Translations under genes and position numbers: made by a program
Assembly: GCA_947470575.1 (NCBI GenBank)
Contig: CANITX010000006.1
Span: 1 to 41,733 of the forward strand
Length of the DNA stretch: 41,733 nt
Source of the DNA: Rhodospirillales bacterium
Lineage (GTDB): Bacteria; Pseudomonadota; Alphaproteobacteria; Rhodospirillales; CAMCUA01
Direction of reading: 5' to 3'
Notes under the pieces: model-generated
The model's input: only the letters and a program-made list of their open reading frames with translations
What the model was told of the DNA's origin: nothing
Database searches by the model: none
Shown: positions 11,801 through 22,412 of the stretch, piece by piece
Layout of the letters: every line of letters starts with the position of its first letter
Numbering within the stretch: the stretch's first letter is position 1

Positions 11801-13092
11801 CGGGAAGCCGTCATTCGGCGGACCTACCGGCCGGCGGCCCGGTCTTTCGCCGCCAGACGGCCATTTGGTTGATGGCCTTCGGCCTTTTCGCCTTCCTTGC
11901 TGCCATCGCACTGCGCGATGCGGCACCGGAGTTGGAAAGCCTGCGCAGCACGGGCGCTGACGCCTTTTCACATTCGGCCATCGGTCACGGCGCTTTCGTG
12001 GAAACGTTGGAGCGATTGGGATTTGCCGTCGACATCAGCAGGTTTCGCACCGCGCGCTCGAGCCGACCCGCCGACCTTCTGGTCATCGCCGCGCCTCCGG
12101 ATGCAGACAGCCTTAGCAACATCCTCGATTCGCTCGACCGCTACCGGCAATCCGCCGGCAATGTGTTGCTGGTCCTTCCCAAGTGGCAGGGGCGGCGCGA
12201 CCGCAACCAGCCGCGCTGGCTGGCCACCATAGAATTGGTGCCCGAACCGAGGATCGTCGCCATCTTGCGGCGCGCCCTGCAGAGCACCATCGGTCCGCGC
12301 GATGGCCGCATCGTCCGCCCCGGTTCGACAACATGGACCGACTCCAGCCTTGGGGACCTTCTTCCCGATATCGATCAACCGCAATTGCTAAGCTACATCG
12401 GCCTGCAGGCCGTGATTGGCACCCCGGATGGCGCCTTGATCGCCAGCATGCAACGCGGTGGCCGCACACTATGGGTGTTGTCAGACCCCGACCTGATCGA
12501 CAATCAGGGGCTTGGCCGCGGCGATAACGCCGCCTTGGCCCTGCGCCTGATCGAGGCGGCACTGCCCACCGGCGGACGCGTGATCTTCGACGAGACCATT
12601 CATGGCTTCGAGCGGCCGCCGAGCCTGTGGCGCGCGCTGCTCAATCCGCCGTTCCTGCCTGCAACCTTGGCCGGCATTGTCGCCATCGCGGCCGTTGGGT
12701 GGGCCGCCAACCGGCGCTTTGGCACGCCCCTACCGGCGCCGCAGGTGAAATCCGGCGGCAAGACCGGCCTGATCGCCAGCAGCGGCGACCTGTTGCTACG
12801 CGGGGGACACCGCAACGCCGTCCTGGCGGCCTTTGCGGCAACCCTGGCCCGTGACGTCGAGCGACGCCTCCATATACCCTCGGGATTGAACGATTCGGAT
12901 CGCACCGCTTGGCTCCGCCGATTGGGCATCGTCCGAAAAGCCACCATCGACGGCCCGGCCTTGCTGCGCCAAGCGGCGGATTCGGATACGGGCCGTCCGA
13001 GCGAAGCCGACATGACGAGAATGGCGCGCGAACTGCTACAATGGAGACGGGAGATGACCAATGGATCTGGACGCCGTTCGGACCCTGTGTGA
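11797..13092 (+). CDS. DUF4350-like membrane protein of the MoxR operon
   Basis: A 431-residue protein with a membrane helix near residues 25-48 ([17 protein letters not shown]), a soluble domain with Rossmann-like flavour ([40 protein letters not shown]), and a second helix near 290 ([19 protein letters not shown]). A cytoplasmic helical tail ends in [12 protein letters not shown]. This order matches DUF4350 proteins of MoxR/DUF58 operons, whose function is not known. The phrase [16 protein letters not shown] with an acidic-His motif is typical of the family. The ATG overlaps the previous stop (ATGA), and the end overlaps the MoxR gene by 32 bases, giving strong translational coupling. Confidence 0.78.
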
Positions 13093-14017
13093 CGGATTGC
13101 GGGCCGAGGTCCGCAAAGCCGTCGTCGGCCAGGAAGCAGCCGTCGACCTTCTCCTGGTCGCGTTGCTATCCGACGGCCACATCCTGCTGGAAGGCGTTCC
13201 CGGCACGGCAAAGACCCTGCTTGCCCGCACCTTTGCCCGGGCGCTCGACCTGCGCTTCGGACGCATCCAGTTCACGCCCGACCTGATGCCCGGCGACGTC
13301 ATCGGCACCAACCTGTTCGATTTCAACGCCAACCGCTTCAACCTGACCAAGGGACCGATTTTCACTCAAATCCTGCTCGCCGACGAAATCAATCGCACGC
13401 CGCCGAAAACCCAGGCGGCTTTATTGGAGGCCATGCAGGAACGTGCGGTTACCATCGACGGCGCAACCCATCCCCTTGGCGACAGCTTCATGGTAATCGC
13501 CACCCAGAATCCCATCGAACATCACGGCACCTATCCACTGCCAGAAGCCCAACTCGACCGCTTTCTGTTCAAGTACACGCTCGGCTATCCCAGTCGCGAC
13601 GAGGAACGCGATGTGGTGCGCCGCCACGGCAACCGGACCGTCATGCCCGATCTGGACGCCTTGGGCATTCACCCTGTCGTCGGGTCCGCCGGTTTGGCCG
13701 AAGCGCGCCAGGCCGTTTCCGCCATTCGGCTGGCCGACGATGTGCTTGACTATGTCGTCGACCTGATTCGCGCCACCCGCGAGCACCCCGCCCTGCAATT
13801 CGGCGCTTCGCCAAGGGCCGCCAACATGCTGGCCAGCGGCGCCCGCGCTTTGGCTGCGCTGCGGGGCCGCGACTACGTTATCCCCGACGACGTCAAGGAA
13901 TTGGCGTCGCCCGCCCTGCGTCACCGCGTCATCCCGTTACCAGGCGCCGAAATCGAGGGTACCGACGCCGATTCGGTCGTCGCCGAGATCCTCGAGCGGG
14001 TCGCGGCACCGCGCTGA
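13061..14017 (+). CDS. MoxR-family AAA+ ATPase (DUF58-operon type)
   Basis: A 318-residue AAA+ ATPase of the classical MoxR subgroup. Walker A is GVPGTAKT (45-52), Walker B ILLADEIN (104-111), sensor 1 VIATQNP (145-151), with the hallmark [16 protein letters not shown] and the lid segment [16 protein letters not shown]. The start overlaps the DUF4350 frame by 32 bases and has GGGAG upstream. MoxR proteins of this type are proposed to act as chaperones with a VWA-like partner, here the DUF58 protein encoded 11 bases downstream. It is not closely similar to the MoxR protein at 2585-3436, which belongs to the CoxD-like branch. Confidence 0.95.
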
Positions 14018-14028
14018 ACGGCAAGCGC

Positions 14029-15339
14029 ATGTATCCCACCCGTCGCGGATTGCTGCTGATCGGCGCCAACGTCCCGGCAGCGCTCGCCATGGGCATCCTG
14101 TGGCCAAGTGCGTGGCCGCTGTCCCTGGCACTGCTGGCGGCCAGCCTGTTAGCTGTGGGCATCGACGCGCTATGGGCGCTGCGGCCAACGGATGTCGGGA
14201 TCAATGTCATATGTCCGCCGGTCATTTACGTGGGCCGCCCGGAGACGGCGCAAATTACCGTTACCGTGCCGGCCGGAACGCCAAGGGTAGCTGCGGAATT
14301 GCTCGTCGACGTCGGCCGGCTGCTGGCGCCGCCCACGGCCGTGAGGCTGATGTTGATCGCCGATGCGCCGAACGACATCGGCGTCGCCCTGGCACCGCTT
14401 CGCCGCGGCATGGCCGAGATTCTATGCGTCTGGTTGCGCTGGGCCGGCCCCTGGGGGCTCACCTATCGGCAACGGATGCAGCCGGTAGCCGCTCAGATGC
14501 CGGTGCTTCCCGATATCCGTTCGGTGCGCGACGCGGCGCTTCGCTTCGCCGCGCGCGAAGGCATGCCCGGTGCTCGCCCGGACAGCGGCTCCGGCGAAGG
14601 TTCGTCCTTTCACGCGCTGCGCGATTACGTATTGGGGCGGGATCCGCGCGCCATCGACTGGAAACACTCAGCCCGCCACCGTTCCCTTCTGGTCAAGGAG
14701 TTCCAGGCCGAGCGCGATCATCAGATCGTGCTGGCTTTCGACACCGGACACCTGATGTCCGAACCACTGGACGGCATGGCCCGTCTCGATCGTGCCGTGA
14801 ACGCCGGGCTGCTGCTGGCTTATATGAGCTTACGCGGCGGCGACCGGGTCGGCCTGTTCGGATTCGATTCCCAGGTTCGCACGACGTTGGAGCCGGTGAC
14901 CGGAACTGCTGCCTTCGGCCGCCTGCAAAGGGCCGCAGCCACCTTGGAGTACGGTACGGAGGAGACCAATTTCACGCTTGGCCTGACATCGCTGACGGCC
15001 CGGCTTAACCGCCGTTCGCTGATCGTCGTCGTCACCGAATTCGTCGATACGGTGACGGCCGAGATGATGATCGATAACCTGGGCCGCGCCGCCCGCCGAC
15101 ACCTTGTGCTGTTCGTCACCTTGCGCGACAGCGATGTCGAGACGCTGGCGGAAGCCGAGCCCCGTTCCGCCGAGGATGTCGCTCGCGCGACCATCGCGCA
15201 CGATTTCCTGCGCGACCGTCAAGTGGTGTTCGAGCGTCTGCGGCGACTTGGCGTTCTCTGCCTGGAAGCACCCGGCCAGCTCATCGGACCGGAACTGCTC
15301 AATCGCTATCTCGACATCAAACGCCGCGAACTGATCTGA
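14029..15339 (+). CDS. DUF58 domain protein (VWA-like, membrane-anchored)
   Basis: A 436-residue protein. Two hydrophobic stretches at the N-terminus (about 8-45) anchor it in the membrane. The DUF58 signature is FHALRDYVLGRDPRAIDW, then SARHRSLLVKEFQAE, followed by a VWA-type Rossmann fold with FDTGHLMS in place of the first metal motif, and later GDRVGLFGFDS. The middle part contains a beta-sandwich-like region. It follows its MoxR partner by 11 bases and precedes the SpoIIM-like gene by 6. MoxR-DUF58 pairs are widespread and poorly understood; complex assembly or envelope functions have been suggested. The degenerate metal motif DTGHLMS may not bind metal. Confidence 0.93.
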   Translation: MYPTRRGLLLIGANVPAALAMGILWPSAWPLSLALLAASLLAVGIDALWALRPTDVGINVICPPVIYVGRPETAQITVTVPAGTPRVAAELLVDVGRLLAPPTAVRLMLIADAPNDIGVALAPLRRGMAEILCVWLRWAGPWGLTYRQRMQPVAAQMPVLPDIRSVRDAALRFAAREGMPGARPDSGSGEGSSFHALRDYVLGRDPRAIDWKHSARHRSLLVKEFQAERDHQIVLAFDTGHLMSEPLDGMARLDRAVNAGLLLAYMSLRGGDRVGLFGFDSQVRTTLEPVTGTAAFGRLQRAAATLEYGTEETNFTLGLTSLTARLNRRSLIVVVTEFVDTVTAEMMIDNLGRAARRHLVLFVTLRDSDVETLAEAEPRSAEDVARATIAHDFLRDRQVVFERLRRLGVLCLEAPGQLIGPELLNRYLDIKRRELI

Positions 15340-15345
15340 ATCGCC

Positions 15346-16383
15346 ATGGCCGACGATTTCCGACTGAAAAGTACCGTCTTTCGCCAGGAACGCGAGCCGT
15401 CCTGGCGCGAGTTGGAGGCGCTGGTCCAACGCTGGGAATCGCGGGGGCTGCGGGGCCTTTCCGCCACCCAGGCGCTGCGCCTGCCGTTGCTTTATCGCGC
15501 CGCGCTGTCTTCGCTGTCCGTGGCGCGCTCGATTTCGTTGGACCGCAACCTGTCGGACTATCTGGAGAGCCTGTCAGCGCGCGCCTATTTTTGCGTTCAT
15601 GGCGTTCACACGGCGCCGCTGGCGGCCGTCCGGACATTTTTCTTCCGCCAGTTTCCCGACGCCATACGCCAATCCGCCTGGGCCATCGGGCTCGCAATCC
15701 TGATCTTTACCGCGGGCATCGCCACCGGCCTGATCCTGACCCTGATCAACGACGATTGGTTCTTCGCTTTCGTCAGCAGCGCCATGGCCGGCGACCGCAC
15801 GCCGGACAGCACGACAGCCAATCTGCGCGCCGCACTCTATAACTTCGACATCAAACTGACGGACATGCTGAAATTGTTCGCCGCCGAGTTATTTTCCCAC
15901 AATGCCGGCATCGGCCTGCTCTGCTTCGCCTTCGGGTTTGCCTTTGGGGTGCCGGTGGTTCTGTTGCTGTTTTCCAACGGCGCCACGCTGGGCGCCTTTG
16001 TCGCGCTTTATGCCAGCCACGGCCTGACCTACGAACTTCTTGGCTGGATGCTGATCCATGGGATCACCGAGATTCTGGCGCTGCTGCTGTGCGCCGCGGC
16101 CGGTTTGATGCTGGGCAGGGCGATGGCTTTTCCCGGCCGTCGCCAACGACTCGACGCCCTGGCGGATGCGGGACGAACGGCGGGTCGCCTGGCCGTCGGC
16201 GCCATTTTCCTGTTTTTTATCGCCGCCGTCCTGGAGGCCTTTCCCCGCCAGTTGATAACCCAAGACCATATCCGCTGGCTGATCGCCGTCAGCAGTTTGT
16301 TCATTTGGGGTTTGTACATCACCGCCACCTGGCGCGGCCGAAAGGTCGATAGCACGGACGCCGTTCATGACGGTATCAGCTGA
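15346..16383 (+). CDS. Stage II sporulation protein M-like membrane protein
   Basis: A 345-residue polytopic membrane protein of the SpoIIM/DUF95 family. A basic N-terminal soluble part of about 100 residues is followed by hydrophobic segments: one near 110-133 (WAIGLAILIFTAGIATGLIL), several between about 185 and 255, and two near the C-terminus. The conserved LIHGITEILALLL motif contains the family His-Gly...Glu. In Bacillus SpoIIM works with SpoIID/SpoIIP in peptidoglycan hydrolysis during engulfment; in non-sporulating proteobacteria the homologue sits, as here, in MoxR-DUF58 operons with unknown role. Spacing of 6 bases to DUF58 and a 17-base overlap with the RDD gene mark one operon. 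Confidence 0.88.
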   Translation: MADDFRLKSTVFRQEREPSWRELEALVQRWESRGLRGLSATQALRLPLLYRAALSSLSVARSISLDRNLSDYLESLSARAYFCVHGVHTAPLAAVRTFFFRQFPDAIRQSAWAIGLAILIFTAGIATGLILTLINDDWFFAFVSSAMAGDRTPDSTTANLRAALYNFDIKLTDMLKLFAAELFSHNAGIGLLCFAFGFAFGVPVVLLLFSNGATLGAFVALYASHGLTYELLGWMLIHGITEILALLLCAAAGLMLGRAMAFPGRRQRLDALADAGRTAGRLAVGAIFLFFIAAVLEAFPRQLITQDHIRWLIAVSSLFIWGLYITATWRGRKVDSTDAVHDGIS

Positions 16384-17350
16384 CCGAGTTGCCCATTCGC
16401 GGGTTGCTCCCTTGCAACAGCATGCCGGCGATGGGCGCGATACCCGTCGCCGCTCGGTGCTGACCCCCGAAGGCGTCGCTTTGTCATTGCAGCGGGCCAG
16501 TACCGGCAGCCGTTTCATCGCCTTGCTCGTCGATCTGCTCATCGTCCTCATGCTGTTGATCATTCCCGGCATCGCCATTGTCGTTGCCATCCAGGCATTC
16601 GATATGCCTCGGATAGCCGCCGGATGGGTCTTCACCGCCCTTCTGGTTGCCAGTTTCCTGCTGCGTACGTTCTACTTCGCCGCCTTCGAGTTGCGCTGGC
16701 AGGGACGTACGCCGGGCAAGCGCTGGCTGCGCATCCGGGTCATCGAGCGCCACGGCCGGCCTTTGACCGCGGGCGCCATCTTTGCCCGAAACCTGGCCCG
16801 CGAAGCCGAATTGTTTGTGCCGCTGAGTCTGCTGGCGGCCGGCGGCAGTGCCGGAGTCGACGGCTGGATCCGCCTGGCCACACTGGCCTGGCTCGGCCTG
16901 TTCCTCGCCATGCCGCTGTTCAACCGCGACCGGCTCAGGGTCGGCGATCTCATCGGCGGCACCATGGTGATCGCCAATCCGAAGGCCATCCTGCTCGACG
17001 ACATGGCTGGCATCGCCGGCGTCGGCGGACCGGCCGAACGCTTCCGCTTCACTCCGGCCCAGCTACAAACCTACGGCATCTACGAGCTACAGGTTCTCGA
17101 AGAAGTGCTGCGACTGCCGGAAGGCCCGGTCGCCTTGGACACGCGCCGAGCCGTGGCCGGAAAAATCAGGCAGCGCATCGGCTGGAGCGCCAGCGATTCA
17201 CAGGCGCCGCAAAACGATACGGAAGCCGATCCCCGGCCCTTCCTGGAAGCCTATTACGCCGCGCTGCGCGGCAATCTGGAAACCGGCCTGCTGTTCGGCC
17301 GGCGGCGGTTGCGCCAAGCCGCCAAGGGCTCAATGCCGCCGTCGCTGTGA
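16367..17350 (+). CDS. RDD family membrane protein
   Basis: A 327-residue protein. A cytosolic start is followed by the RDD domain from about residue 45: the Arg-Asp pair lies in GSRFIALLVDLLIVLML, and hydrophobic segments follow at VFTALLVASFLLRTFYF and WLGLFLAMPLF. The typical GRTPGKRWLRIRVI and DLIGGTMVI motifs are present. The last 110 residues are soluble, with LQTYGIYELQVLEEVLR, an extension seen in RDD proteins of MoxR operons. RDD proteins are proposed transporters or membrane scaffolds. Its start overlaps the SpoIIM-like gene by 17 bases. It ends only 6 bases from the convergent gene at 17357. Confidence 0.9.
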   Translation: MTVSADRVAHSRVAPLQQHAGDGRDTRRRSVLTPEGVALSLQRASTGSRFIALLVDLLIVLMLLIIPGIAIVVAIQAFDMPRIAAGWVFTALLVASFLLRTFYFAAFELRWQGRTPGKRWLRIRVIERHGRPLTAGAIFARNLAREAELFVPLSLLAAGGSAGVDGWIRLATLAWLGLFLAMPLFNRDRLRVGDLIGGTMVIANPKAILLDDMAGIAGVGGPAERFRFTPAQLQTYGIYELQVLEEVLRLPEGPVALDTRRAVAGKIRQRIGWSASDSQAPQNDTEADPRPFLEAYYAALRGNLETGLLFGRRRLRQAAKGSMPPSL

Positions 17351-17356
17351 GAGTGG

Positions 17357-18136
17357 TCAGTCGAAGACCGCGGTGACGCGGCCGATGTCGATCCCGTCCT
17401 TGGCCATCCGAAGGTCGTAGTAGGTGACGCCCAAGACCACGAGCCAATATATGCCGAGCACCGCCGAGATGGCGTTGTAAATGGCGCTTCCCAGCCCGCC
17501 AAACGGCAGGGCAAAAGATATGGTCCACATAACTGCACCCATGATCGCCCCCATCAGCACGGCCATCCCCAGCAGCCGCCAACGGTTGCCTTGGGTCAGG
17601 AAGGCGCTGCGGCGCAAGCTGGCGATAATGCCAGGGCGTTCCATGACCATCACAGGAAACACCACCCACAGCATCAGAAGGAAGATCACCCCGGGAACAA
17701 CAAGGAGAATGCTTCCCAGCACAATGATGACGTACCACACCAGCATCAGAACGATGGCCGGCAGCAACACGTTCAGGCCATAGCGCAGCCATTGACCCAG
17801 GCCCTCCGGCCGCCCTCTCAGATCCTGGACCGTACCGTAGGTGACGATGGCCATGAGAAAGGCGCTGAAGACAACGGCCAATAACCAATAAGCCGCGATA
17901 CCGCCGCCATCGGGGAACCCGGACGCCTCGCCCGCCGCCTCCCCCATGGCCATGTTCGTCAGGTCGCCCAGAAACAGGTGGAACATGACTCCCTGGAAGA
18001 TGACGTTCAGCAAGGTAACCGCACCCAGAGATATCAGGTTGCGGCGAATCACGCCAAAGCTGCGGCTGAGGACCGAACCGATCTCCAGCTTCGCGACCGG
18101 CGCCAATGCCTGGCCCGCGCTGTCCTGTTCGCCCAT
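17357..18136 (-). CDS. Polytopic membrane protein, GDPD-membrane-domain/DUF-type
   Basis: A 259-residue membrane protein. A cytosolic start (AKLEIGSVLSRSFGVIRRN) leads into about six hydrophobic segments: LISLGAVTLLNVIFQGV, YWLLAVVFSAFLMAI, VLLPAIVLMLVWYVIIV, a following VVPGVIFLLMLWVVFPV, and two near the C-terminus. The pattern VVPGVIFLLMLWVVFPVMVME plus a helix with SLRRSAFLTQGNRW resembles the membrane domain of glycerophosphodiester phosphodiesterases and related YciC/DUF975 proteins; no catalytic domain is present. The ATG at 18136 is supported by an AGGA site directly after a G9 run. It converges on the MoxR operon with 6 bases between the stops. Confidence 0.72.
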   Translation of the reverse strand: MGEQDSAGQALAPVAKLEIGSVLSRSFGVIRRNLISLGAVTLLNVIFQGVMFHLFLGDLTNMAMGEAAGEASGFPDGGGIAAYWLLAVVFSAFLMAIVTYGTVQDLRGRPEGLGQWLRYGLNVLLPAIVLMLVWYVIIVLGSILLVVPGVIFLLMLWVVFPVMVMERPGIIASLRRSAFLTQGNRWRLLGMAVLMGAIMGAVMWTISFALPFGGLGSAIYNAISAVLGIYWLVVLGVTYYDLRMAKDGIDIGRVTAVFD

Positions 18137-18151: not shown

Positions 18152-18303
18152 TTCATTAATTACCACCCTACCACTTATGGTAGACTTGATGACATGCAAT
18201 AATCCACAACGCTTCGTAATCCGTCCAAGGTCTGACCCTTGACCCACCTACGCGCTTCGTGGGAAGGGAAGCGAACGTCACCGCAGCCGACAGGCCATCG
18301 TTC

Positions 18304-18639
18304 ATGATCGACAACCCAGTCTTCACCCGTATCCGGGCCGAGATCGAGACGACGCCGGTCGTCGCCTTTCTCAACGGCACGCCGATGTGGCCGACGTGTT
18401 CGGGTTCGGCAGCGGTGGCCCATCACTTGGCCGGGCTGGGTATCGCCTTCAAAGGTATCGACGTCACCCCCGATCCGGAGCTGCGAGACGGCTTGAAGGC
18501 CTTCGCCAATCTGGCGGAAATCCCCCAGGTCTACGTCAAGGGTGAGCTGCTCGGCGGCGGCGAGACGGTCCGCGACTTGGCCGAGAGCAGCGCCTTGGCC
18601 GAGGTTTTCAAGAAAAAGGGCATCGCCATCGCCGACTGA
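18304..18639 (+). CDS. Grx4-type monothiol glutaredoxin homologue with atypical CSGS site
   Basis: A 111-residue protein starting MIDNPVFTRIRAEIE, like alphaproteobacterial GrxD, a [2Fe-2S] cluster carrier working with BolA. The ATG at 18304 is chosen by this N-terminus although no clear ribosome site precedes it; an in-frame GTG at 18259 adds 15 unrelated residues. The thioredoxin fold is evident (GTPMWP, IPQVYVKGELLGG). Three GrxD hallmarks are changed: CGFS is CSGS (32-35), the WPTIPQ tryptophan is replaced (LAEIPQ), and the glutathione-binding GGCD is GGGE (84-87). The cysteine is kept. Cluster or glutathione binding may therefore differ. A bolA gene lies about 1 kb away on the other strand. 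Confidence 0.85.
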   Translation: MIDNPVFTRIRAEIETTPVVAFLNGTPMWPTCSGSAAVAHHLAGLGIAFKGIDVTPDPELRDGLKAFANLAEIPQVYVKGELLGGGETVRDLAESSALAEVFKKKGIAIAD

Positions 18640-18642
18640 CGG

Positions 18643-19581
18643 TCAGACGAAGCGGCCGAGCCGCACGGCCGTGTCGCCGATCCGTCGGCGTGGGTTGGGC
18701 ATGATCAGCACACAGTTGTCGTAGGGCGTGCGCAATGTACGCCGTCCATCGCGGGCAAACGGGGTGCCGGCGCGGGGGATCACCTCCATGCCGATGAAGG
18801 GTTCGACAAAGTCGAAGTCCGGCGATGCCACCGTCACCGTCTCGGTGACCACGATGACGTTTTGCGGCGGCGGTAGTTCAGGCGGCAACCAGCCCGTTAC
18901 CGCATCGAGTGCGACCACGCCGGTCTGGACGAGGAACCGCAGGGTCGCCTGGCGAGCGACAGCTATGCCCGCCGGGTCTTCATTCTGGCCGCATTCGACC
19001 AGCAAGGCGTTGCGCGGGCTGGCGGGATCGGCGAACGCCCCGTAATCGCGCAAACGGCGTCCCGCCGAGTGGCCGGCGTCGCAGATGACGTGGGCCGGAT
19101 AGCCAATGGCTTCGGCGAAGTGCCGGCCTTTGGCCAAAGGCCCCGCCAGGGCCAGAGGCGCCGTCGGATGCTGCATGGAGTGGATGTCGAGCAGGGCGTC
19201 GACGGTATCGATCAGTGGCCGGAGTTCGCGCGCCCGCCGCAGCTCCGTCGATGTCCGAGGACCGTCGAGCACGGCGGCATTCCAGAGACGATTGAGGTCT
19301 TCCTCGATAAAGCGCGACGCCCGCGGCAAGGCCGGATCGAAGCTGTCATAGGCGTCGATGTTCATGAAGCCGAGCGTCAGTCGTCCCCGCGACGGCCGAA
19401 TATCGCTGCGGAACAGGAAATCGAGGACATAGGCGCCGCACAGTTCGTTGCCATGGGTGACGGCGGCGACCATGACGTGCGGACCGGCCCGACGGGAGTC
19501 GAAGGTCGTTACGGCGGCGATGCCGGTGTTGCCCGTCCGATAGGCACCGATGTCGACGGGGAGCAGGCCAGCCTCCGCCAC
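18643..19581 (-). CDS. Succinylglutamate desuccinylase/aspartoacylase-like zinc hydrolase
   Basis: A 312-residue M14-type zinc carboxypeptidase-fold hydrolase that removes acyl groups from N-acyl amino acids. Zinc ligands are H43 and E46 in VTHGNELCG and H134 in LLDIHSMQH; DLNRLW (about 95-100) is the substrate Arg/Asn motif and E196 in LLVECGQNED is the likely catalytic Glu. A C-terminal beta domain follows. The start is GTG at 19581, ten bases beyond the bolA stop, with GAGGA somewhat far upstream. AstE itself belongs to arginine succinyltransferase operons, not seen here, so the amino-acid substrate is open. It lies downstream of bolA in one operon and ends 4 bases from the glutaredoxin stop. 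Confidence 0.88.
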   Translation of the reverse strand: MAEAGLLPVDIGAYRTGNTGIAAVTTFDSRRAGPHVMVAAVTHGNELCGAYVLDFLFRSDIRPSRGRLTLGFMNIDAYDSFDPALPRASRFIEEDLNRLWNAAVLDGPRTSTELRRARELRPLIDTVDALLDIHSMQHPTAPLALAGPLAKGRHFAEAIGYPAHVICDAGHSAGRRLRDYGAFADPASPRNALLVECGQNEDPAGIAVARQATLRFLVQTGVVALDAVTGWLPPELPPPQNVIVVTETVTVASPDFDFVEPFIGMEVIPRAGTPFARDGRRTLRTPYDNCVLIMPNPRRRIGDTAVRLGRFV

Positions 19582-19590
19582 CGGATCGGC

Positions 19591-19827
19591 CTAATCCTCG
19601 GGCGGGCTGGTCTGCAAGGCCAACGCATGCAGTTCGCCGCCCATCCGGCCTTGCAGCGCCTTATAGACCATCTGGTGCTGCTGCACGCGGTTCTTGCCCT
19701 TGAAAGCGGCGGATACCACCATGGCCGAGTAATGATCGCCATCGCCGGCAAGATCCTCGATGGTAACCCGAGCGTCAGGCAGCGCCTCTTTGATCAAAGC
19801 CTCGATCGCCGCCGCCGTCATCGCCAT
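19591..19827 (-). CDS. BolA family protein
   Basis: A 78-residue BolA/YrbA-like protein. The ATG at 19827 is chosen (AAGGGG upstream; an ATG two codons in is possible); the open frame runs further up but the extension overlaps the start region of the divergent aldo/keto reductase. The fold signature is seen as [19 protein letters not shown], then [30 protein letters not shown], and the family-invariant ELHALALQT. Proteins of this subgroup pair with CGFS glutaredoxins to hold and move [2Fe-2S] clusters and affect iron or envelope regulation. Here it heads a two-gene operon with a zinc hydrolase and is not adjacent to a canonical grxD. Confidence 0.93.
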
Positions 19828-20883: not shown

Positions 20884-21609
20884 ATGTTCAAACGCACCCC
20901 ACACACCATGCGCCGGGCCTTGCAGGAAAAGCGCAAGATTTTCGGCGTCTTCCTGTCCGGAGCCAGCCCGGAGATCATCGAGATCGCCAGCACGCTGAAG
21001 GAAATCGAGTATTTCTACGTCGACGGCGAACACGGCATGTTCGACCTGAACGAGGTCGAGGCTTGCGTGCGCGCCGCCGAGGCGGTGGACCTGCCGATCA
21101 TCGCCCGGGTGCCGGACCATATGAACGAGACCATCCAGCGCTACCTGGACCGCGGCGTGCGCGCCATCGTCGCCTCCCACATGTCCGATGTCATCACCGC
21201 CGAGCGGGTAGCCAAGGCCTGCCGCTATTTCCCTCGTGGCACCCGTTCCTTCGGCTCGGCGCGTGCCAACCGCTTCGGCTTCTACGAAGGCGATCGGGCG
21301 ATGCACATGAAGGCGGTGAACGACGACCTGCTAGTATGCGCCACCATCGAGGACGTCGAGGGCGTGAAGAACCTGGACGCCTTGCTGAAGGTCGACGGCA
21401 TCGATGCCTGGAGCATCGGGCCCAGCGATCTTTCGATGTCGCTCGGTTATCCGGGTCAGTTCGACCATCCGGCGGTCAAGAAGGTCTTCGACGAGGTCTA
21501 CGGAAAGATCGACGCCTCCGGTAAGTTTAATCGCGACAAATATATGGTTTCGATCCGCGATAAGATCGCCCTGCGCAACGGCCTAAAGCAGGCCATCGCT
21601 GCCGGCTGA
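20884..21609 (+). CDS. HpcH/HpaI-type class II aldolase, copy B1
   Basis: A 241-residue metal-dependent aldolase of the HpcH/HpaI (citrate lyase beta-like) family. H50 lies in YVDGEHGMF, R75 in IIARVPDHM, metal ligands E156 in CATIEDVEG and D182 in SIGPSDLSMSLGYPG, the classical GPxDLS form. A strong GAGGAGGGAAG site precedes the ATG. It is shorter than and clearly distinct from the pair at 7084-8730, which has GTNDFC at the metal Asp. The immediate neighbour 21687-22412 is a paralogue with the same start pattern. Substrates of such enzymes are 4-hydroxy-2-oxo acids; this one cannot be specified. Confidence 0.92.
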   Translation: MFKRTPHTMRRALQEKRKIFGVFLSGASPEIIEIASTLKEIEYFYVDGEHGMFDLNEVEACVRAAEAVDLPIIARVPDHMNETIQRYLDRGVRAIVASHMSDVITAERVAKACRYFPRGTRSFGSARANRFGFYEGDRAMHMKAVNDDLLVCATIEDVEGVKNLDALLKVDGIDAWSIGPSDLSMSLGYPGQFDHPAVKKVFDEVYGKIDASGKFNRDKYMVSIRDKIALRNGLKQAIAAG

Positions 21610-21621
21610 TTCTTCACGGGA

Positions 21622-21659
21622 GTCGGGGACGAAACGGAGCCGTCCGAATTGTCCCCGAC
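21622..21659. repeat. Inverted repeat between aldolase genes B1 and B2
   Basis: GTCGGGGAC (21622-21630) and GTCCCCGAC (21651-21659) form a perfect 9-bp stem; the enclosed 20 bases contain a smaller ACGG/CCGT pairing. It lies 13 bases after the stop of copy B1 and 28 before the start of copy B2. There is no T-run, so it may be an mRNA processing or stability element or a partial terminator that sets different levels of the two copies. Confidence 0.5.
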
Positions 21660-21686
21660 ACGATCCATGACCGAAGGAGCACCGGG

Positions 21687-22412
21687 ATGTTCGTGCACAC
21701 GCCCAATACCATAAGGGCCGCATTGCAGGAGCGGCGCATCATCTACGGCCTCTACCTGTCGTTTCCAAGCCCCGAACTCATCGAATTCGCCGCCACCGTA
21801 AACGGCATCGCCTACATCCACCTGGATGGCGAGCATGGCGTTTTCGATCTTAGGGATGTCGAAAACTGCGTTCGCGCCGCCGACCTGATGGGCCTGCCGA
21901 CAATGGCGCGAACACCCGATTCGGCGGCAGAAACCATTCACCGCTACCTGGACCGCGGCGTGCGCGCCATCGTCGCACCGCATATTTCGACGGTTGCCGA
22001 TGCCCAACGGGTTGCCGATGCCTGCCGCTATGCGCCCGAGGGTACGCGTTCCTTCGGTGGCGCGCGCGGCAATCGCTATGGCTATTTCGATGGCGACCAG
22101 GCCGCGCATATGAAGGCATTGAACGACGACCGGGTGGTTTCCGCCCTGATCGAGGATGTGGAAGCGGTGAATAACCTCGATGCCATGCTCAAGGTGCCCG
22201 GTATCGACACCTGGACCATCGGCCCTAACGACCTTGCCCAATCCCTGGGCTATCCCGGCCAAACCGGTCACCCCACCGTCAAGCAAGCCATCGAGGACAT
22301 CAATCGCCGGATCGAGGCGGCCGGCAAACCGGTGCGCGACAAATACCTGGTTTCGATCCGCGACAAGGCCGCCGTGCGCGACGGTCTCCAAAAGGCCATG
22401 CTCCGCGCTTGA
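21687..22412 (+). CDS. HpcH/HpaI-type class II aldolase, copy B2
   Basis: A 241-residue paralogue of copy B1, same length without visible gaps. It starts MFVHTPNTIRAALQERR after AAGGAG. Catalytic residues are conserved at the same numbers: H50 (HLDGEHGVF), R75 (TMARTPDSA), E156 (ALIEDVEAV), D182 (TIGPNDLAQSLGYPG). Differences from B1 fall in the loop after R75 (DHMNET versus DSAAET), after the GGARGNRYGYFDG segment and in surface helices. The two ends (DKYLVSIRDKAAVRDGL versus DKYMVSIRDKIALRNGL) are nearly alike. This is an older duplication than pair A, judged by eye. Confidence 0.92.
   Translation: MFVHTPNTIRAALQERRIIYGLYLSFPSPELIEFAATVNGIAYIHLDGEHGVFDLRDVENCVRAADLMGLPTMARTPDSAAETIHRYLDRGVRAIVAPHISTVADAQRVADACRYAPEGTRSFGGARGNRYGYFDGDQAAHMKALNDDRVVSALIEDVEAVNNLDAMLKVPGIDTWTIGPNDLAQSLGYPGQTGHPTVKQAIEDINRRIEAAGKPVRDKYLVSIRDKAAVRDGLQKAMLRA

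Follow-up and report, generated by a model that had tools for sequence, protein, structure and literature searches.

A retained GrxD paralog with a degenerate active site near bolA in a Rhodospirillales bacterium

The window analyzed here is a stretch of 41,733 nucleotides from a Rhodospirillales bacterium (contig CANITX010000006.1). At 18304-18639 of its forward strand it contains a 111-aa open reading frame with an ATG start, as called and translated from the DNA, whose product is related to the glutaredoxin GrxD (Grx4). The features of the locus are listed below; the sister species is the other species of the same genus that was compared.

17357..18136, reverse strand: small membrane protein, with the start taken at MGEQD and a DUF7847 match below the cut-off; the sister species keeps this neighbor
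18197..18211, forward strand: upstream block of 15 nt, identical in the sister species, a possible control element (two-species comparison)
18234..18248, forward strand: second upstream block of 15 nt, identical in the sister species and containing TTGACC (two-species comparison)
18304..18639, forward strand: GrxD-related protein of 111 aa with the motifs NGTPMWPTCSGS, LAEIPQ, and GGGE (open reading frame, family and structure matches, alignment)
18373..18375, forward strand: codon of Asn24, where the Lys of KGTP is expected (alignment; importance of the Lys from passages of PMC7351949)
18397..18408, forward strand: CSGS (residues 32-35) in place of CGFS, with the Cys and the last Ser retained (translation, alignment)
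18511..18519, forward strand: Leu-Ala-Glu (residues 70-72) in place of Trp-Pro-Thr (alignment; link of WP to the cluster from passages of PMC7138851)
18553..18564, forward strand: GGGE (residues 84-87) in place of GGCD; GSGK in the sister species (alignment)
18643..19581, reverse strand: AstE/AspA-like gene (PF24827) between the degenerate glutaredoxin gene and bolA, in a place conserved in the sister species
19591..19821, reverse strand: bolA (PF01722), the exact start codon being uncertain

A possible in-frame start codon further upstream, GTG here and ATG in the sister species, could lengthen the protein by 15 residues (18259-18303), 9 of which are alike between the two species; this region contains the GGGAAGGGAAGCG block. 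Beyond the membrane protein gene, the region 13061-17350 encodes a MoxR-like ATPase and a DUF58-like protein (both recognized by eye) and membrane proteins of the SpoIIM and RDD families (Pfam). On the other side, tandem HpcH/HpaI-aldolase-like genes occupy 20884-22412, of which 20884-21609 was assigned by Pfam and 21687-22412 by eye.

The window protein matches the GrxD family TIGR00365 over nearly its full length (E 5.5e-23, profile search) and scores 80.9 bits, below the curated cut-off of 117.1. By this cut-off, it is classed as a relative of GrxD and not as GrxD. The GrxD-like length and N-terminus ascribed to it by a first-pass annotation agree with its 111 residues and this near-full-length match. 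Solved class II glutaredoxins are also matched, down to E 7.3e-17 (3gx8, the mitochondrial Grx5), and together the two matches exclude a chance similarity to GrxD. The GRX_bact model gives 22.4 bits against a cut-off of 90. As for the glutaredoxin classes, the class II loop is present as GTPMWPT, without a single indel relative to the canonical proteins, whereas the CGFS site of that class is replaced by CSGS with its Cys and last Ser kept. The short loop and the CPYC/CSYC-like site of class I are missing, the class II loop being found instead, and the protein does not have the CC-type site of class III (ROXY), carrying CSGS and the class II loop. An AlphaFold run on the two-sequence alignment reached a pLDDT of 45, and the model was not used.

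The substitutions were evaluated against 126 distinct collected proteins of 95-150 residues, from which one CPYC protein (L004) was removed. The remaining 125 comprise 115 with the Lys and CGFS, nine degenerate proteins, and one with RGTP and CGYS; removal of the nine and of the aberrant rows L110_1, L112, and L113 left a canonical set of 113. Ten positions are 100% conserved in this set (K24, Q31, C32, G33, F34, S35, W70, P71, T72, and D87), and the window protein retains C32 and S35 alone. Thus the replacement of CGFS by CSGS and the loss of WP before TIPQ, both pointed out in the first-pass annotation, are borne out: LAEIPQ is present, and C32/G33/F34/S35, W70, and P71 are without exception in the 113 canonical relatives. 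Its third hallmark, the change from GGCD to GGGE, stands for the Asp87 and not for the Cys, since the latter is merely 83% conserved in the canonical set, where Ala and Ser also occur. A fourth change, absent from that annotation, may be the most telling, namely Lys24 of KGTP to Asn. The Lys before the loop is described, in the passages of PMC7351949 that concern it, as strictly conserved in all glutaredoxins and very rarely Arg, and its mutants in human Grx5 and Arabidopsis GrxS15 had lower Fe-S protein activities. Replacing WP by RR in human Grx5 gave a colorless protein, unlike the wild type, according to the corresponding part of PMC7138851.

Among the rows set aside from the canonical set, L110 (genome G184) is an additional GrxD-like gene, carrying RGTP and CGYS, that lies near a canonical CGFS copy. 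L112 and L113 (G089 and G053, family f17) are second CGFS proteins of very high divergence, with identities to the window protein of 33% and 31%, respectively, and lie far from the other proteins in the tree of 125 proteins.

The source genome (3.43 Mb in 277 contigs, 91.7% complete) was searched for a canonical CGFS GrxD, as the first-pass annotation had proposed, and one was found on another contig (C165). It has the CGFS site, scores 152.8 bits with TIGR00365, above the cut-off, is 45% identical to the window protein, and ends a sufB-sufC-sufD-sufS-sufE-sufT run on one strand, the next gene being in the opposite direction. SufB, SufC, SufD, SufS, and SufT exceed their curated cut-offs in the family scan, and SufE is below its own. 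Being the only GrxD of a viable genome, which that annotation had named as evidence against its reading, is not the situation here: the canonical copy in the suf operon led us to reject the window gene as the sole GrxD. BolA is matched twice in the genome, once in the window and once on contig C93.

The single other genome of the family that was compared, G023, makes the comparison within the genus one of two species. It has an ortholog of the degenerate gene, 82-83% identical and at the same locus, with the membrane protein gene, the AstE/AspA-like gene, and bolA as neighbors common to both. The ortholog carries the motif CSDS and the GG turn GSGK and scores 77.2 bits with TIGR00365; G023 also has a canonical CGFS copy (L040), adjoined by sufE and sufT. 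Since an intact ortholog lies at the same locus in another metagenome-assembled genome of the genus, a sequencing or assembly artefact or a frameshift was rejected as the source of the changes in the window. Between the two species, the degenerate gene shows 24.5 nonsynonymous differences over 247 sites (0.099) and 33.5 synonymous differences over 83 sites (0.405; Fisher p 1.4e-9), and is under purifying selection. At a similar dS, its dN of 0.106 exceeds the 0.032 of the suf-linked pair about threefold. Among the changed residues, N24, S33, L70, and A71 are identical in both species, and Cys32, Ser35, Arg61, Lys65, cis-Pro74, and the GTPxxP loop are kept in both. The degenerate gene is thus a retained paralog, neither an error nor the only GrxD.

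In the order as a whole, a GrxD-family member was found at E 1e-10 in 184 of the 199 sampled genomes; G001, a 96% complete genome of family f2, gave no GrxD-family match at either E 1e-10 or 1e-12. Gene order was read at 30 loci, two in the genus of the window and the 28 best-scoring ones outside it, which are not a random draw. Each of these 28 best-scoring loci has bolA on the strand of the canonical grxD and no more than about 1.5 kb away from it, and the end of purL lies near as well in 20. The window gene therefore sits near the usual neighbor of grxD, about 1 kb from bolA in both species, but inverted and with the AstE-like gene intervening. Three genomes of family f11 (G010, G035, and G065) possess two CGFS copies, one linked to bolA and the other to sufT, so the two-copy state occurs elsewhere in the order.

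A profile built from five degenerate proteins separated exactly ten degenerate-form genomes among 317 of the order, with at least 159 bits, from all other matches at E 1e-38, which reached at most 144.1; no further degenerate group was found among these 317 genomes, a search by which forms with other residues could be missed. In a class-wide search of 385 genomes, a sample that contains neither g48 (the genus described below) nor G023, nothing ranked near the window protein, and the 29 loci read besides that of the window all have CGFS. Scans of viral sequences yielded no relative with the two-protein alignment, none with the suf-linked copy as a query, and a single relative at 46% (L178) with a wider alignment; the 30 matching plasmid records are all below 60% identity. 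A phage or plasmid origin is unsupported by these scans. Glutathione synthase was matched in all 15 genomes checked (14 above the cut-off and one split), so glutathione has not been lost and its loss was rejected as the cause of the degenerate sites.

The second group of degenerate proteins belongs to the genus g48 of family f19, three genomes of which were matched better by the window protein than by the canonical query (E ~1e-27 versus 1e-21). Each of the eight g48 genomes has one GrxD-family member at E 1e-15 and no second match. These proteins (L114-L121, from G122, G148, G591, G592, G067, G593, G590, and G594) are without the active-site Cys, reading EGTPMFPLTNRG and variants at this place; in three of the eight (L118, L120, and L121) a Cys occupies the Trp position, and the other five have no Cys at all. 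Two of the g48 gene pairs tested show purifying selection; the substitution rates used for g48 pairs are NG86 estimates. The gene is adjoined by rarD in all eight loci, with purL beyond in seven and bolA in none, and BolA (PF01722) was found genome-wide in none of the eight, five of which have a completeness of 90% or more and a contamination of 5% or less. As a control, the same search found BolA in four of 14 named genomes, including E. coli and Caulobacter. A member of the same family, G136, has the order purL-bolA-rarD-grxD with a normal CGFS site, likely the earlier arrangement of the g48 locus. Distance from bolA does not by itself go with loss of the site, because five of 22 other f19 loci (L122, L126, L127, L129, and L139) have no bolA within 1.5 kb and keep CGFS.

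The two degenerate lineages have much in common. In both, the Lys before the loop is lost (Glu in g48), as are Gly-Phe, Trp, and Thr, while the class II loop and purifying selection are maintained; GGG and an RDL-type start of the following helix are further likenesses. They differ in that g48 has also lost the Cys and Ser (LTNRG and similar), contains no other family gene that could be found, and has its gene beside rarD without a BolA match. Of the 38 columns at least 97% invariant in the 113 canonical proteins, both species of the window pair have lost 16 and the seven distinct g48 proteins have all lost 15. Eleven losses are common to both (Lys24, Gln31, Gly33, Phe34, Leu55, Trp70, Thr72, Ile88, Glu91, Met92, and Glu97), an overlap with a hypergeometric P of 0.002 when positions are treated as exchangeable, which is a simplification. 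Residues retained in the two lineages alike are G25, P27, and P30 in the class II loop, together with cis-Pro74, Tyr77, and Gly84; Cys32 and Ser35 are kept by the window pair alone.

A starred node (98/88) unites both degenerate groups in the 125-protein tree, with a warning of long branches meeting, and in a smaller quick tree of 92 rows, with other orders mostly dropped, all degenerate proteins form one clade with support 71. When one group at a time was left out, with eight long or distant rows dropped, the window pair without g48 falls beside the bolA-linked f11 copies in a node that is not starred. Without the window pair, g48 enters a starred set (96) with four proteins from other orders (L082, L087, L096, and L099), a grouping against which gene order speaks. 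Three constraints on the window pair, which joined it to the bolA-linked f11 copies, to every suf-linked copy, or to just its own suf-linked copies, all beat the free tree, with p-AU from 0.81 to 0.89; the constrained trees being likelier than the free one, that tree search was poor and decides nothing. Gene order favors a separate loss in each lineage, and the GGG and the RDL..A after the GG turn that they share make a common source a possibility too. The window gene is probably the copy of the bolA locus, although the trees do not separate descent from a bolA-linked copy and descent from a suf-linked one.

From the substitutions, we infer that normal glutathione-ligated [2Fe-2S] cluster binding would have been lost from the window protein. 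The first-pass annotation had suggested that the protein may have lost cluster transfer or gained another role. For the former, the loss of WP, the Lys, Gly-Phe, and the Asp supports a loss of normal cluster handling, and the retained ligand Cys32 tempers it: because this Cys is kept in both orthologs, residual or altered cluster binding is possible. The latter would fit purifying selection. In our main reading, to which we give about even odds (roughly 0.5), this is a GrxD-fold protein kept after losing its normal glutathione and cluster handling, which probably acts by binding a partner. The gene would be a diverged GrxD paralog, probably the bolA-locus copy, and the job of cluster carrier would most likely be done by the CGFS GrxD of the suf operon, a division of labor suggested by the presence of both. 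Much of the glutathione/[2Fe-2S] pocket is lost from the window copy, with GTPxxP, cis-Pro, and Cys32 kept under purifying selection, and the protein would most likely work through a protein partner without a normal glutathione-ligated cluster. Our best guess for this partner is the neighboring BolA, since apo-glutaredoxins and apo-BolA proteins are able to bind each other without a cluster in other organisms. For instance, apo SmYrbA of S. meliloti binds apo SmGrx2 with a Kd of 6.8 uM (in the part of PMC7538681 that reports it), and sections of the review PMC10051749 report apo complexes of E. coli Grx4 and IbaG, and a plant apo-glutaredoxin that uses the DNA-binding face of BolA. A cluster-disabled glutaredoxin could, as we guess, keep BolA cluster-free, either off DNA or off the working GrxD. 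Against the main reading, bolA lies on the other strand from the degenerate gene and is separated from it by a further gene, unlike in the 28 best-scoring canonical loci; the conserved Cys32 and Ser35 make weak cluster or thiol chemistry possible; and an approximately threefold dN is what partial decay would also give.

Decay of a redundant paralog, under way since the suf-linked copy took over and short of a pseudogene, would explain this excess of dN over the canonical copy together with the concentration of losses at functional sites and the restriction of degenerate forms to ten of the 317 order genomes. We consider it unlikely, if worth serious thought, in view of the strong purifying selection on a frame intact in two species, the identity of N24, S33, L70, and A71 between them, and the g48 form with its Cys-less site, which is the sole family member found there and is conserved across eight genomes. 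Improbable too, in our opinion, but likewise to be taken seriously, is a class II carrier still at work with altered affinity, where Cys32 ligates and the other changes tune binding. The residues kept in both species, from Cys32, Ser35, Arg61, and Lys65 to cis-Pro74 and GTPxxP, fit such a carrier, as does the bolA gene nearby. It is hard to reconcile with the loss of the Lys, Gly-Phe, Trp-Pro-Thr, and the Asp altogether, and with the variation of pocket residues between species (CSGS or CSDS, GGGE or GSGK); the colorless WP-to-RR form of human Grx5 and the lowered Fe-S protein activities of the Lys mutants, taken from the parts of PMC7138851 and PMC7351949 cited above, point the same way.

The remaining alternative is a redox-active monothiol glutaredoxin of class I type, which appears very improbable: the window protein keeps the class II loop and is missing the conserved Lys and the Tyr of CPYC/CSYC. 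CSYS sites occur in some class I proteins. The Cys-Ser-x-Ser of the window protein resembles these and CSYC, which passages of PMC7351949 and PMC11724882 give as the site of some class I proteins; the class II loop is reported to switch off redox activity in passages of PMC7351949 and PMC7138851.

To return to the window protein itself, its likenesses to GrxD/Grx4 (TIGR00365, EcGrx4, HsGrx5) are the full-length homology, the length, the N-terminus, the GTPxxP loop, the position of the Cys, the cis-Pro, the GG turn, and the nearby bolA. In contrast to that family, it has Asn for Lys, CSGS for CGFS, LAE for WPT, Glu for D87, RDL for REM in the helix after GG, and a score below the cut-off. The class III glutaredoxins of plants, such as ROXY9, provide a comparable case of a glutaredoxin fold without ordinary glutathione chemistry, and this class regulates TGA transcription factors (as described in passages of PMC11724882). 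Unlike the window protein, they have a CC-type site and no class II loop and most keep the Lys (again from passages of PMC11724882); they are confined to land plants and are not family-level relatives of it. Among the open-licence papers listed by literature searches, no title or opening abstract describes such bacterial proteins.

A broader proposal, which we put forward tentatively and with more doubt than conviction, is that the GrxD fold does work which needs no cluster and which can continue after the [2Fe-2S] cluster and the BolA partner are both gone. The pocket would have been taken apart twice within the order, at mostly the same sites (or once, followed by spread), while selection held the loop and the fold, giving a "pseudo-glutaredoxin" that acts by protein binding and here perhaps holds BolA cluster-free and blocked from DNA. 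In g48, where no BolA was found, the fold must be preserved by something other than BolA binding, and another partner would be needed. Glutaredoxins and BolA proteins usually occur together, and the roles of their shared cluster and of the apo-proteins are hard to separate. GrxD relatives that naturally carry a disabled cluster site would be ready-made separation-of-function proteins with which cluster-independent roles could be probed: one stands near bolA in a genome that has a normal GrxD at another place, the other in a genus that gave no BolA match. They also carry a warning for annotation, as homology alone assigns such proteins to the Grx4 family though they are without its working parts. 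Finally, the window protein may show how a GrxD-type carrier outlives its cofactor.
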